Assembly: GCA_937981915.1 (NCBI GenBank)
Contig: CALJMD010000259.1
Location: 1 to 34,620, forward strand
DNA length: 34,620 nucleotides
Reading direction: 5' to 3'
Origin: an uncultured Acidimicrobiales bacterium
GTDB lineage: Bacteria; Actinomycetota; Acidimicrobiia; Acidimicrobiales; SZUA-35
The position numbers were made by a program, and so were the translations under genes. The notes beneath the pieces were generated by a model. That model did not search any database. It was given only the letters and a program-made list of their open reading frames with translations, and was not told where the DNA came from. Numbering within the stretch: the stretch's first letter is position 1; the number at the start of each line of letters is the position of its first letter. Positions 30,197-34,620 of the stretch are shown here, piece by piece.

Positions 30197-31879
30197 ATGA
30201 ACGATAGAGCCAAGCCGGCTCGGTCGCTAGAGCAGAACGGCAAAACCCCATTAAGCGAATGGGGAAGCGAGGTCGGCGATTATCAGGACTCAGCCGATAT
30301 CGACGACGCGTTTGCCGAGCTGTTGGAAAAGTCGCCCGTGCGTTCGTCTGAGGAAGAGCAATCAGCCGGTGGCAATGAAGCTCGCCTGAGTCCGGACGAT
30401 CTTCCCGGATCCGATGTCTCCGAGTCTGAGGTTCCTGTAGCGGCGCCGGCCGTTGAGCCGGTGGCTCCAGCCGGGCCGACTGAAACCGATGGTGATCTAC
30501 CACCGGAGGCCGGAGCCTTCTCTCTGCTTGGCTACTTGCTTGAGTCGGGCGAGGAAAGCGACTCGCCGATCCAGGGCGATGGAGCAGACGACCCACCTCT
30601 GGAGAGCGACGCTGTCGACGAGATCAATCCCGACGCACTCGATGACGCCGAGGCACCTGATGACGCCGAGAGCGGTGACGTTGACCGTCAGGACGAGGCC
30701 GAACTCGACGACAGCCAAGAGGATTCCGACCTCGGAGTCCAGCTGGAGGAACCTGTAGACGCCGGTTTGGTCATCGTCGAACGCTCGCGGATCGTCGACT
30801 CCGGCCCCGAAGAGGTGGACCGTGAGCCCGAGCCGGGACTTGAATTCGCTCCTCCCAGCCAGAGGCACCCTGGCGATCTCGCCGGTTCCACTCTGTACTC
30901 ATCCGATGGCTATGACTCCGACGACTTCGGAGGAATGGACGACACCAAAGAGAACACGGGGCTTGCCAGCTCGTTTTGGGAGGACACCGCGAATGCTCCC
31001 GCCTGGCACCCGGACGCTCCCACCAATCTTCAGCACTCCGCTGTTGTCCCCGAAAGCTGGGAATCGCCGTCACTGCCGTCAAGGACGGTTAGGAGCCCCG
31101 GAGAGCGACGCCGACCGCAGACCGCGCTCGACGTCGTCGGCGAGCTTACTGACCGCCCAGGCTTCTGGAAGTCGATGGCTGCGCTCGCCGTCGTCGGCAT
31201 CGGCGGTGCGTTCTACTCGATTGGGTTCTTCGACGAGGTCCTGGGTGGCGGCGGAGAGACGACGACGGCACAGGTAGTGCGAAGCGGTGCAACGCTTCCG
31301 GAGACCGAGATTGACAACGAGCCGCCCGATGCCCTTGGCGACTTGCAATCGGCGCTGACCGATGATGCCGGCGACTTGGCCATCAGTACCGGAAGCGGCG
31401 GTGAGGATGAACCTGCCGCTCCGACTCGTCGCGTTGACCGCAGTTCTTCGGACGCAGTTGCGACGACGGCGTCCACCGAGCCGGCAACATCGACGAGTAC
31501 CTCTACCACCGAGCCGTCAGCCAGTACCTCTCAGCGTCAGACCTCCACTACGGCCCGGTCATCTACGACCTCAACTCGGCGGAGTTCGACGACCACCACG
31601 TCGCAACCCGCCACGACGAGGCAGCCGACCACGACCCGACCAGTTACCACGACGACGACGACCGAAGCTACTACTACCACTCGTCGAACCCCGCCGAGCC
31701 GAGGTCGTCCAACTACGACGACAACCACTACAACAACCACGACTGCGCCGACCACAAGCTCGACCACGACTGCTTCGACGACAACGTCAACGTCTCAGCC
31801 GACCACCTCGACCAGTGAACCGACAACCACGACGACCGAGGCCACAACCTCGAGCACCGAGGCAGGCGGCGGCGAGTAG
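30197..31879 (+). CDS. Single-pass membrane protein, acidic inside and Thr-rich outside
   Basis: I do not recognise a family for this 560-residue protein. Residues 1-320 are very acidic (repeated D/E with S, P, A) and likely disordered. ERRRP at 303-307 precedes a single membrane segment at about 324-345, so the positive-inside rule puts the acidic part in the cytoplasm. The outer part begins with a Gly-rich linker and ends in about 150 residues dominated by Thr and Ser (about 410-555), encoded by imperfect ACN triplet runs. Such a tail may cross the wall and be O-mannosylated, which is inference. ATG 30197 has AAGGGA about five bases upstream. It resembles the protein at 1721-3271 in layout though not in detail. 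uppS follows after 105 bases. Confidence 0.75.
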   Translation: MNDRAKPARSLEQNGKTPLSEWGSEVGDYQDSADIDDAFAELLEKSPVRSSEEEQSAGGNEARLSPDDLPGSDVSESEVPVAAPAVEPVAPAGPTETDGDLPPEAGAFSLLGYLLESGEESDSPIQGDGADDPPLESDAVDEINPDALDDAEAPDDAESGDVDRQDEAELDDSQEDSDLGVQLEEPVDAGLVIVERSRIVDSGPEEVDREPEPGLEFAPPSQRHPGDLAGSTLYSSDGYDSDDFGGMDDTKENTGLASSFWEDTANAPAWHPDAPTNLQHSAVVPESWESPSLPSRTVRSPGERRRPQTALDVVGELTDRPGFWKSMAALAVVGIGGAFYSIGFFDEVLGGGGETTTAQVVRSGATLPETEIDNEPPDALGDLQSALTDDAGDLAISTGSGGEDEPAAPTRRVDRSSSDAVATTASTEPATSTSTSTTEPSASTSQRQTSTTARSSTTSTRRSSTTTTSQPATTRQPTTTRPVTTTTTTEATTTTRRTPPSRGRPTTTTTTTTTTTAPTTSSTTTASTTTSTSQPTTSTSEPTTTTTEATTSSTEAGGGE

Positions 31880-31984: not shown

Positions 31985-32743
31985 ATGACTGATCCCGTCC
32001 GGAACGATCTCCCGATCCCTCGTCACGTTGCCTGCGTGATGGACGGAAACGGACGTTGGGCCCAACAGCGCGGCCTGAAGCGCACTGACGGACACGCCGC
32101 TGGGGAGAACGCCCTCATGGAGGCAGTCGACGGAGCGCTTGAGCTTGGTGTCGGCTGGTTGACCGTCTACGCGTTTTCAACGGAGAACTGGCGCCGCCCG
32201 TCCGATGAGGTCCGGTTCTTGATGAGGTTCAACGAGGATCTTCTCGTGCGCCGCCGGGACGAGCTGAACGAAAAAGGGGTCAGGATACGGTTCATTGGTC
32301 GCCGGGACTGGAAGGTTCCCAAGCGTCTTCTCCGCCACATGGACCAGAGTGCGGCGTTGACCGCAGACAACCGTCGGCTCACTCTGACCGTGGCATTCAA
32401 CTACGGAGGACGGGCGGAATTGGTCGATGCGATCAAGAAGCTGCTCGAGACCGAGTCGAACCCGGGCGCGGTCGATGAGGCCATGATCGAAAAGCACCTC
32501 TACGACCCTGAAATGCCGGAAGTGGATCTGTGGATTCGAACTTCAGGCGAGTACCGGACATCCAATTTCTTGATGTGGCAGTCGGCGTACGCCGAAATGA
32601 TCTTCACCGAGACCTTCTGGCCCGACTTCAGTCGACAGACATTGTTTGACGCCGTCTCCGAATTCCAGACCCGGGAACGACGCTTCGGCGGCCTTGCCCT
32701 ACCTGATGCGGTGGACGAGGTCGACGTTCCCCGCACGGCGTAG
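31985..32743 (+). CDS. uppS: Isoprenyl transferase (undecaprenyl or polyprenyl diphosphate synthase)
   Basis: The 252-residue cis-prenyltransferase makes the lipid carrier for peptidoglycan and other wall glycans. The signature HVACVMDGNGRWAQQRG contains the catalytic Asp20. Other family blocks are GWLTVYAFSTENWRRPSDEV, FNYGGRAELVDAIK and RTSGEYRTSNFLMWQSAYAEM. The product chain length (decaprenyl in mycobacteria, undecaprenyl elsewhere) cannot be told. recO follows after 21 bases, the conserved actinobacterial uppS-recO neighbourhood, with the order reversed relative to many genomes. Confidence 0.95.
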   Translation: MTDPVRNDLPIPRHVACVMDGNGRWAQQRGLKRTDGHAAGENALMEAVDGALELGVGWLTVYAFSTENWRRPSDEVRFLMRFNEDLLVRRRDELNEKGVRIRFIGRRDWKVPKRLLRHMDQSAALTADNRRLTLTVAFNYGGRAELVDAIKKLLETESNPGAVDEAMIEKHLYDPEMPEVDLWIRTSGEYRTSNFLMWQSAYAEMIFTETFWPDFSRQTLFDAVSEFQTRERRFGGLALPDAVDEVDVPRTA

Positions 32744-32764: not shown

Positions 32765-33493
32765 GTGCCGCTCTATCGAGATGACGCAGTAGTACTTCGC
32801 ACCCACAAGCTGGGCGAGGCCGACCGAATTATTGTGCTGCTGACCCGGGGCCGCGGCAAGGTCAGGGGAGTGGCCAAGGGCGTGAGGCGGACAAAAAGCA
32901 AATTCGGATCTCGCCTTGAGCCCGGTTCGATTGTGCAAGTCCAGCTCTACGAGGGTCGAAATCTCGACACGATCACTCAGGTGCAGCGGACCGACACCCC
33001 GTCGCAGTCCCGCACCGATCTCGCCCACTACGGACGCCTCACCGTCCTTTTGGAGATCATTGATTCGGTAACGGTCGAAGGAGAATCGAATCCGGCGCTG
33101 TTCAAGTTGTTGACCGGGGCGGCCCGCGAGTTGGCTCGGCGACCCAACCCGATGATCGTTCCCGCTTTCACCATGCGGCTGCTCGCCTTGGAAGGCGTAC
33201 AGCCGTCGTTCGACCGTTGCGTCCGCTGCGGCGCCACCGAGGGCATCGTCGGTGTCAACTTGGCTGAGGGCGGCGTCATATGTCGAGCCTGTCCACCCAC
33301 AGGCGAAAAGATGAGCGCCGAGGCGCTGGAGGTCTTTCGATCACTGGCCGCAGGGAGAGTCAGAGATGTTCTCGACGACACGCCGTTGGCGCTCCAGCAC
33401 GACATTGAGAGTTTGGCCGGCCGAGTGGTGGAGCAGTATCTGGAGCGTCGGCTAAAGACGTCGGCCGTGCTGTACCAACATCTTCAGACGTAG
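32765..33493 (+). CDS. recO: DNA repair protein RecO
   Basis: The 242-residue RecFOR pathway protein helps load RecA onto single-stranded DNA. The N-terminal OB fold begins YRDDAVVLRTHKLGEADRIIVLLT and continues with GVAKGVRRTKSKFGSRLEPG. A four-cysteine zinc site is present at Cys152, 155, 173 and 176 (RCVRCG ... ICRACP). Length and order are canonical. GTG 32765 is the chosen start. It converges on the acidic protein gene with 15 bases between the stops. Confidence 0.94.
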   Translation: MPLYRDDAVVLRTHKLGEADRIIVLLTRGRGKVRGVAKGVRRTKSKFGSRLEPGSIVQVQLYEGRNLDTITQVQRTDTPSQSRTDLAHYGRLTVLLEIIDSVTVEGESNPALFKLLTGAARELARRPNPMIVPAFTMRLLALEGVQPSFDRCVRCGATEGIVGVNLAEGGVICRACPPTGEKMSAEALEVFRSLAAGRVRDVLDDTPLALQHDIESLAGRVVEQYLERRLKTSAVLYQHLQT

Positions 33494-33526
33494 AGGCAGT
33501 CCGGTCAACTAGACCTCTGCTGCCTC
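33493..33526. terminator. Inverted repeat across the convergent recO / acidic-protein ends
   Basis: GAGGCAG (33493-33499) and CTGCCTC (33520-33526) are perfectly complementary around a 20-base loop that contains the second stop codon. An alternative pairing, AGAGG with CCTCT, is also possible. It may act as a terminator in both directions, though the large loop makes this weak. Confidence 0.25.
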
Positions 33527-34522
33527 GGTTTCCATGCTGAGCCACTCACCGATGGCGCTGTCATAGCGAACCCAGGCTTGCTGAGCGTCGTTCCAACAAA
33601 TCCAAGCGTTCCAGTCTTCACTCCAGACCGGGGCAGCCGGGTCGGCGTCTGAAATCTGGCTTGGCCCGTCGGATGCTTCGACTTCTTCGGCTTGGTCGGT
33701 CTCGGCTTCGTCGGTTTCGGCTTCTGTAGGTTGTTCGGCTTCGACTTCCGCCGCTACCTCGGATTCGACATCTTCCGCTTCGTCGGTTTCGACCTCGGCC
33801 GGTTGTTCGGCTTCGGCTTCTACCTCTTCGACGATCTTTGCTTCTGCTTCTGCCTCTACCTCGATGTTGTCGGCTGTCTCGGCCTCGATGCTCTCGGCTG
33901 CGATGGGCGCTGCGACGTCGACTTCGGTTGGTTCGGAAACTGAATCGGCTTCGTCCGCTGGGGGATCGTTCTCCAGAGCAACCGGCTCTGGTGTCGTCTG
34001 TGTGTCGGCGGCCGATCGTCGGTGGCTCGGCAACGGATAGCTGGTGGAAGCTGAAGCCTCAGGCGAGGCCGCTGCCTCAACGAGTCGGCTCTTGAGTGTG
34101 TCTGTCGGTTCGCTGGCGTCCGGGCTAGAGGCCTCGATCGTGGTCGAGTCGCTCTCGATCTCTTCCGAACTGACTGGTTCGGGGCTGATGTCCTCAGCGG
34201 CGATTTCTTCGGGGTTGACGTCTTCAGAAGAAATCTCGTTCTGCCCGTCCCCTGCATGCTCGTCCGCGCCGTCGTCATGTTCCTCGATGAGTTCCTCGAC
34301 GGCAAACGTTGAGACGGTGCCTTCAACCCAGTCGTCGTCGGACGAGGCACTGTCGGCGGGATCGGGGTCCTGAACGTCGATTTCCAGAAGCTGCCCTACC
34401 TCCGTAACCTCGGGTGCAACATCGTCGGCGGACCGCTCCGGTGCGCTGTCGGCGAAACTGCCGTCGGCACCGCCTTCGAGACTTTCGTGGTTTTCGTCGA
34501 CGCTGCTATCGGCACTGCTCAT
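33509..34522 (-). CDS. Very acidic repetitive protein with Trp-rich C-terminal repeat
   Basis: I do not recognise a family for this protein, 337 residues from ATG 34522. Most of it is Glu/Asp/Ala/Val/Ser-rich, with degenerate repeats such as VEAEAEQPAEVETDEAED and VEAEQPTEAETDEAET, and it is probably disordered. It has no membrane segment. The last 40 residues change character: six Trp in about 28 residues, forming two 10-residue units (WICWNDAQQA and WVRYDSAIGE) and a final W. The ATG has GAGGTG six bases upstream, the best ribosome site here, and a GTG at 34531 is within it. However, the frame has no stop up to the right edge of the window, so the gene may begin outside it and this entry may be partial. 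Confidence 0.65.
   Translation of the reverse strand: MSSADSSVDENHESLEGGADGSFADSAPERSADDVAPEVTEVGQLLEIDVQDPDPADSASSDDDWVEGTVSTFAVEELIEEHDDGADEHAGDGQNEISSEDVNPEEIAAEDISPEPVSSEEIESDSTTIEASSPDASEPTDTLKSRLVEAAASPEASASTSYPLPSHRRSAADTQTTPEPVALENDPPADEADSVSEPTEVDVAAPIAAESIEAETADNIEVEAEAEAKIVEEVEAEAEQPAEVETDEAEDVESEVAAEVEAEQPTEAETDEAETDQAEEVEASDGPSQISDADPAAPVWSEDWNAWICWNDAQQAWVRYDSAIGEWLSMETEAAEV
33542..33634 (-). repeat. Coding region of the aromatic 10-residue repeats
   Basis: These bases encode the Trp-rich end of the acidic protein. Two units follow the pattern W-[IV]-x-[WY]-[ND]-x-A-x-x-x and the array ends in a third Trp. The regular spacing of aromatic and Asp/Asn residues suggests a small folded or ligand-binding module. 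Confidence 0.55.
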
Positions 34523-34620
34523 GTCAAACACCTCGCTAGACGGCTCTGGAACCGAGAACGCAGGCCGTATGTCACCGTTGTCGGTCGACTCGATGAGTTG
34601 GTTTAGATGATTGTCCGGTG

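Follow-up and report, generated by a model that had tools for sequence, protein, structure and literature searches.

The locus described here raises two questions: what is the acidic protein whose reading frame runs off the right edge of its contig, and what does the Trp-rich tandem repeat at its C-terminus do? The window (the whole stretch analysed, 34,620 nucleotides) is the entire contig C259 of a 4.07-Mb Acidimicrobiales MAG assembled in 484 contigs. The frame at 33509-34618 on the minus strand encodes 369 residues and is indeed open to the right edge, continuing for 29 codons beyond a GTG at 34531, as originally predicted. When the same genome was searched with the N-terminal region of L054, the sister protein, matches appeared at two sites: C165:7504-8097 (68% identity) and the edge of the window. 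The final 141 bases of contig C165 and those of the window are exact reverse complements, with one copy on each contig; because this overlap joins the window to C165, where the true start lies, the full protein is 529 amino acids long. The suspicion that the N-terminus was outside the window was therefore correct, and the in-frame stop just right of the window that would have spoken against the prediction is absent, the frame continuing into C165. The estimate of about 295 acidic residues before the repeat holds if counted from the GTG, while 326 precede it within the window. The features of the gene are as follows.

34480-34620, no strand: exact 141-bp overlap shared with one end of C165, a contig from the same genome (sequence identity)
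33509-34618, minus strand: C-terminal 369 codons of the RDD-linker-module membrane protein (codons 1-160 of 529 are on C165)
33644-34618, minus strand: acidic, presumably disordered linker (33% identical to that of the sister species L054)
33530-33643, minus strand: C-terminal Trp-repeat module DPAAPVWSEDWNAWICWNDAQQAWVRYDSAIGEWLSME (matched by the profile at E 2.4e-17 in the same genome; predicted four-strand meander)
33596-33625, minus strand: unit 1, WSEDWNAWIC (alignments A1 and A5)
33566-33595, minus strand: unit 2, WNDAQQAWVR (alignments A1 and A5)
33536-33565, minus strand: unit 3, YDSAIGEWLS (alignments A1 and A5)

The half of the protein encoded on C165 matches the RDD family (PF06271; L124:1501-2118, 50.0 bits against a cut-off of 24.1, E 4.8e-13), which makes the window's own gene a member of that family by the Pfam cut-off. 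From the N- to the C-terminus the protein consists of an RDD membrane domain, an acidic linker (322 residues, of which Glu makes up 19% and Asp 12%; net charge -93), and a Trp-repeat module some 36 residues long. The module had no match among Pfam or NCBIfam models, in line with the initial impression that it fitted no familiar motif, and literature searches on the module and the RDD family, at the level of listings, returned no description of it. The protein is an RDD-family member carrying an unlisted module; this architecture, and the recurrence of the module in other proteins, can hardly be doubted.

The general unit of the repeat is [WYH]-[DNS]-x-x-x-x-x-W-[ILV]-x, ten residues, three in tandem, and the aligned module reads P-x-W-[SDN]-x-x-x-x-[AT]-[WYF]-[ILVM]-x-W-[DNE]-x5-W-[LMV]-x-[HYFW]-D-x5-W-x-P-[ILM], isolated deviations occurring at several positions. 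The period of ten exceeds chance: of 20,000 shuffles of the window's 38-residue module, a fraction of 0.00015 equalled its self-similarity at shift 10, and the mean over the 30 modules of alignment A5 was +1.13 at shift 10, all other shifts from 3 to 15 giving -0.69 or less. Exactly one extra ten-residue unit is present in the relatives L037 and L051. Thus, the repeat is real and its period was correctly recognized from the segments WICWNDAQQA and WVRYDSAIGE and the closing Trp; there are, however, three units rather than two, and the alanine of the pattern first proposed, W-[IV]-x-[WY]-[ND]-x-A-x-x-x, is not conserved among relatives.

No other part of the protein is as well conserved as the module. 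In comparison with L054, identity is 69% in the RDD part (110/160), 33% in the linker (107/325), and 84% in the C-terminal part (37/44), so that the absence of the repeat from close homologs, which would have discredited it, is not what is seen. The tail of the window's protein, used as a single query, had a match at E <= 0.1 in at least 39 of 61 related genomes, the weakest of these matches being possibly due to chance. A profile of 20 modules gave one match in the own genome (E 2.4e-17) and matches in at least 30 of the 395 genomes of the class; the broader profile A5 reached at least 31 of the 395 at E <= 1e-4, under nine family labels (f1, f3, f12, f23, f27, f29, f35, f43, f53). All these genome counts are lower bounds, as usually 19 candidates were scored per genome. 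In a sample of the phylum, 11 of 396 genomes had matches at E <= 0.001, and five were kept, all from the window's order. Six others (L096-L101) were rejected as partial: five were inside frames of 877-934 residues, molybdopterin oxidoreductase-like as judged by eye, and one inside a frame of 108 residues. Among 19 candidate stretches from viral contigs none was confirmed as the module. The named relatives (19 loci) come from Acidimicrobiales, Acidimicrobiia or other actinobacterial MAGs.

The carriers are membrane proteins of more than one kind. Pfam RDD was detected in 42 of the 47 module proteins scanned, and RDD carriers with the C-terminal module occur in several families of the class. The RDD-less proteins among the 47 include the window's own cut protein, L046 and L047 (cut by contig ends), and L014, an MFS transporter; other non-RDD carriers are L104 (MFS, E 1.5e-41) and L111 (LppM-like, 17.8 bits, below the cut-off of that family). 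The module ends zero to seven residues before the stop codon in every full match tallied, the only exceptions being the six rejected frames. Some 36 residues long, it recurs as a separately conserved unit that closes off, at the very C-terminus, membrane proteins otherwise unrelated to one another. The module of L014 is closest, among 21 compared, to the RDD module of the same genome (19/34 identical); the nearest module to that of L104 is from another genome, and for L111 the nearest is some module other than the RDD one in its genome. These comparisons do not show recent transfer of the module within genomes. Adjacent tandem pairs of RDD-module genes were observed in the genomes of L039 and L048, and two module-bearing RDD frames each in L112 and in L095/L103. 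Four proteins (L020, L022, L115, L118) have lost the last third of the RDD profile and retained the linker and the module.

The gene has two conserved neighbors in the window:

32765-33493, plus strand: recO, convergent neighbor in conserved synteny (Pfam RecO_N/RecO_C; cluster c2 in 16/20 loci)
31985-32743, plus strand: uppS, isoprenyl transferase, in conserved synteny (Pfam Prenyltransf, 8.5e-80; cluster c4 in 15/20 loci)

The synteny sample comprised 20 loci (the window and 19 others), in 17 of which a glycyl-tRNA synthetase-like gene, assigned by eye, is also a neighbor. Given this conservation, the RDD-module gene is an old chromosomal resident beside housekeeping genes; the latter give no direct clue to the function of the module. 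In L061, L064 and L071 the order and orientation of uppS and recO next to the RDD gene are opposite to those in the window, a local inversion. The window also encodes, at 30197-31879 on the plus strand, another acidic protein of low complexity, which has one likely membrane helix and a long tail rich in Ser/Thr; its gene lies between uppS and that of a DinG-type helicase. Many related loci have at this position a different protein that aligns poorly (clusters c8, c10, c13 and singletons).

The module very probably folds into an antiparallel beta-meander of four strands, with one short hairpin per unit. An AlphaFold2 model based on 20 aligned tails placed strands at positions 11-13, 18-23, 28-33 and 38-41 of 49 residues, with pLDDT of 88-91 for blocks 11-40 and pTM of 0.54, and a second model, from nine linker-plus-module tails with L066 first, gave the same four strands (pLDDT up to 93). 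In the latter, the linker segment PPPPLHR...APIW had a block pLDDT of 69-74 and the spacer between it and the module 48-50; the value near 70 for the linker motif may result from conservation alone.

It is likely that the module faces the cytoplasm, as three kinds of carriers agree on this side. First, MFS proteins have a cytoplasmic C-terminus. Second, L111 consists of a signal-like hydrophobic segment ending in VATGC (a lipobox as judged by eye), a long middle part, a helix followed by RKSK, and the module. Third, the RDD variants L020, L022, L115 and L118, which match the 137-position RDD profile only to approximately positions 80-92, have two hydrophobic helices before the linker and the module, with Lys/Arg within about ten residues after the second helix. 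However, a crude count combining hydropathy and the positive-inside rule placed the C-terminus outside in seven of 13 proteins, and the accessible part of the literature treats RDD topology as unsettled (PMC7568657).

Strong conservation, the lack of a match in two domain libraries, and the position on the tails of several membrane proteins give the module the look of a docking module. Our preferred reading, with a probability of roughly 45%, is a docking module of a new bacterial type that membrane proteins carry on their cytoplasmic tail; its ligand and function we infer as follows. The RDD part would anchor the protein in the membrane, and the module would be held out on a flexible acidic tether on the cytoplasmic side. 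The aromatic face of the sheet may bind a short proline-rich peptide, in the manner of OCRE and WW domains, the ligand being either the P-x-P-x-H-R motif of the protein's own linker, whereby the protein would close on itself or cluster, or a proline-rich partner. Docking of the tail could recruit or restrain a partner; a precedent is SppI, an RDD protein whose tail acts on a partner.

The linkers contain a candidate for such a ligand. Amid fast-changing sequence, the islands SRLV and YPLPSHR are invariant in the window, L053 and L054:

34016-34039, minus strand: linker island YPLPSHRR (PxPxHR motif), candidate proline-rich ligand, conserved in the window, L053 and L054

In the linker slices of the 19 named loci, PxPx[HR]R was found in 12 and AP[VI]W in 15, where shuffled sequences would give 0.32 and 0.10, respectively; over whole ORFs the former is present in 13 and missing from L061, L062, L064, L069, L070 and L071. 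Both motifs were absent from the last 150 linker residues of all 27 proteins outside the named loci. They are hence a property of one clade and not of the module as such, and PxPx[HR]R cannot be the universal ligand, since it is missing both outside the 19 loci and from six of these. PPPPxHR-like motifs (YPLPSHR in the window), confined to a part of the family, would be plausible ligands in cis or in trans; that the module reads peptides, with the linker motif as its ligand in one clade, is a tentative suggestion from these comparisons, for which the odds seem somewhat short of even. In a second clade (L022, L055, L056, L115, L118) the linkers carry another motif, F-[DE]-x-L-x-L-P-E-S-S-L-[SA], which suggests that these linkers have several short binding motifs.

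The most extensive version of this proposal is a bacterial, probably convergent counterpart of OCRE and WW domains. Built of three chignolin-like hairpins, it would be an exchangeable tail carried on the cytoplasmic side by RDD, MFS and LppM-like proteins, would read PPPPxHR-type motifs in the acidic linkers of these same proteins, and would thereby network them at the membrane in Acidimicrobiia; in its entirety this version is rather unlikely.

Among the other explanations, C-terminal oligomerization, with blade-like meanders of neighboring chains stacking or pairing edge to edge and so clustering the protein, fares best, and is still unlikely. The structural matches are mostly single beta-propeller blades or kelch, the edge strands of the predicted sheet are free, and an extra unit is tolerated in L037 and L051. 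These matches are all weak, though: Foldseek gave nothing at E <= 0.001 (E above 1) for the model of the module or that of the linker plus module, and the VIA comparison of 22 rows derived from Foldseek matches to the module alone peaked at Z 3.3, with the designed AF.p17 (3wkn). Moreover, a blade-like meander is a common arrangement, and a varying number of units would disturb a closed ring. Profile matches in PDB to the PHF20L1 tudor domain, the calcitonin receptor and kelch-type designs were rejected as motif-level only, covering 8-16 residues or a repeated short turn, and the L037 tail had no phmmer match in PDB up to E 10.

Binding to the membrane interface, by which the Trp-rich tail would fold onto lipid headgroups or the RDD domain itself, is improbable. 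It would explain the very high Trp content and the fact that all carriers in the examined set are membrane proteins, but a conserved Asp at the start of each turn, the overall acidity, and linkers of up to several hundred residues do not point to lipid binding.

Quite improbable, too, is that the tail modulates one specific membrane enzyme and is not a general peptide reader. This is suggested by the RDD context and by Bacillus subtilis SppI, an RDD protein whose C-terminus, according to the accessible part of PMC7568657, is needed to control the SppA protease. Yet the C-terminal end of SppI comprises only about 25 residues, the module is also found on MFS and LppM-like proteins, and no protease gene was recognized among the conserved neighbors in the 20 loci.

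Finally, an origin from a divergent DUF2510 (PF10708) moved to the C-terminus of RDD proteins is hardly credible, for even though both are small Trp/Asp modules tied to RDD proteins in the same genomes, the initially suspected likeness fails in profile-profile comparison (hhalign probability 0.3%, one column aligned), on which it was rejected, none of 20 members was hit at E <= 10, and DUF2510 differs in being a single unit at the opposite end of the protein with other Trp spacing. DUF2510 is present in 20 of 21 genomes, with 12 matches in the own genome, including a frame of 223 residues (C73:18514-19104) with DUF2510 directly before RDD, where a Trp module on the N-terminal side mirrors the C-terminal one.

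Small beta modules that read peptides are characteristic of eukaryotic signaling and, to our knowledge, little known in bacteria. A 36-residue module that is more conserved than the membrane domain it is attached to and is common to unrelated membrane proteins offers a handle on the largely uncharacterized RDD family, as well as on how cells work in a class represented here mostly by MAGs. It is also amenable to simple biophysics, its naturally occurring tandem hairpins being very similar to the smallest designed beta-hairpin.

Comparison with known systems starts with the RDD proteins. The characterized members are short (178 residues in H. andaensis, PMC5996927), compared to 529 here, and the accessible parts of PMC7568657 and PMC5996927 mention neither a long acidic linker nor a Trp module for SppI or the H. 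andaensis protein. The latter protein is an ion antiporter according to the same part of PMC5996927. The known functions of the family, antiport and protease control, allow a role for the tail but do not fix it.

Smaller structures offer partial parallels. The third hairpin of the module, YDSAIGEW, fits by eye the pattern Y-D-x-x-x-G-x-W of chignolin (GYDPETGTWG), and the designed hairpin protein AF.2A1 (2rt4) gave a profile match with E 0.098; chignolin, however, is an artificial single hairpin, while the module is predicted to fuse three in one sheet. Kelch repeats share hairpins with Asp, a turn and Trp, but need several blades for a propeller, whereas the module is a single meander; the best kelch Pfam score was 13.7 bits against a cut-off of 25.3. 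The WW domain is a small Trp sheet that can read proline; its Pfam model hit none of 20 members at E <= 10, a search in which HMMER filters may drop weak matches.

The closest parallel is the OCRE domain (PF17780), the only Pfam family that recurred repeatedly apart from the weak kelch matches, and always below its cut-off of 24.7 bits. It was detected at E <= 10 in five of 20 members (best E 0.0079), in five of ten tails in a further scan, and in L046; the best score, 19.0 bits (E 0.0014), belonged to the L037 tail, and the window's own tail had no OCRE match in Pfam. The likeness first noted from the repeat thus finds weak support in scores, none of which reaches the cut-off. The OCRE structure 2mxw ranked seventh among Foldseek matches to the linker-plus-module model (E 3.5, not significant), and the 22-row VIA table built from matches to the module alone contains no OCRE chain, an absence that does not decide against OCRE. 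On the basis of these sub-cut-off scores and the non-aligning DUF2510 profiles, the protein is filed as an RDD-family member with an unlisted module that is possibly OCRE-like in its working. In RBM5 and RBM10, OCRE arranges tandem aromatic repeats as an antiparallel meander, as is predicted for the module, but it has eight-residue Tyr-based units, six strands and an N-terminal extension, where the module has ten-residue Trp/Asp units and four predicted strands, and it resides in splicing factors, the module on the tails of bacterial membrane proteins. The antiparallel aromatic sheet of OCRE binds four prolines flanked by arginines, as described in the accessible part of PMC5127646, and it is this ligand that the PPPPxHR-like linker motif of some members resembles.
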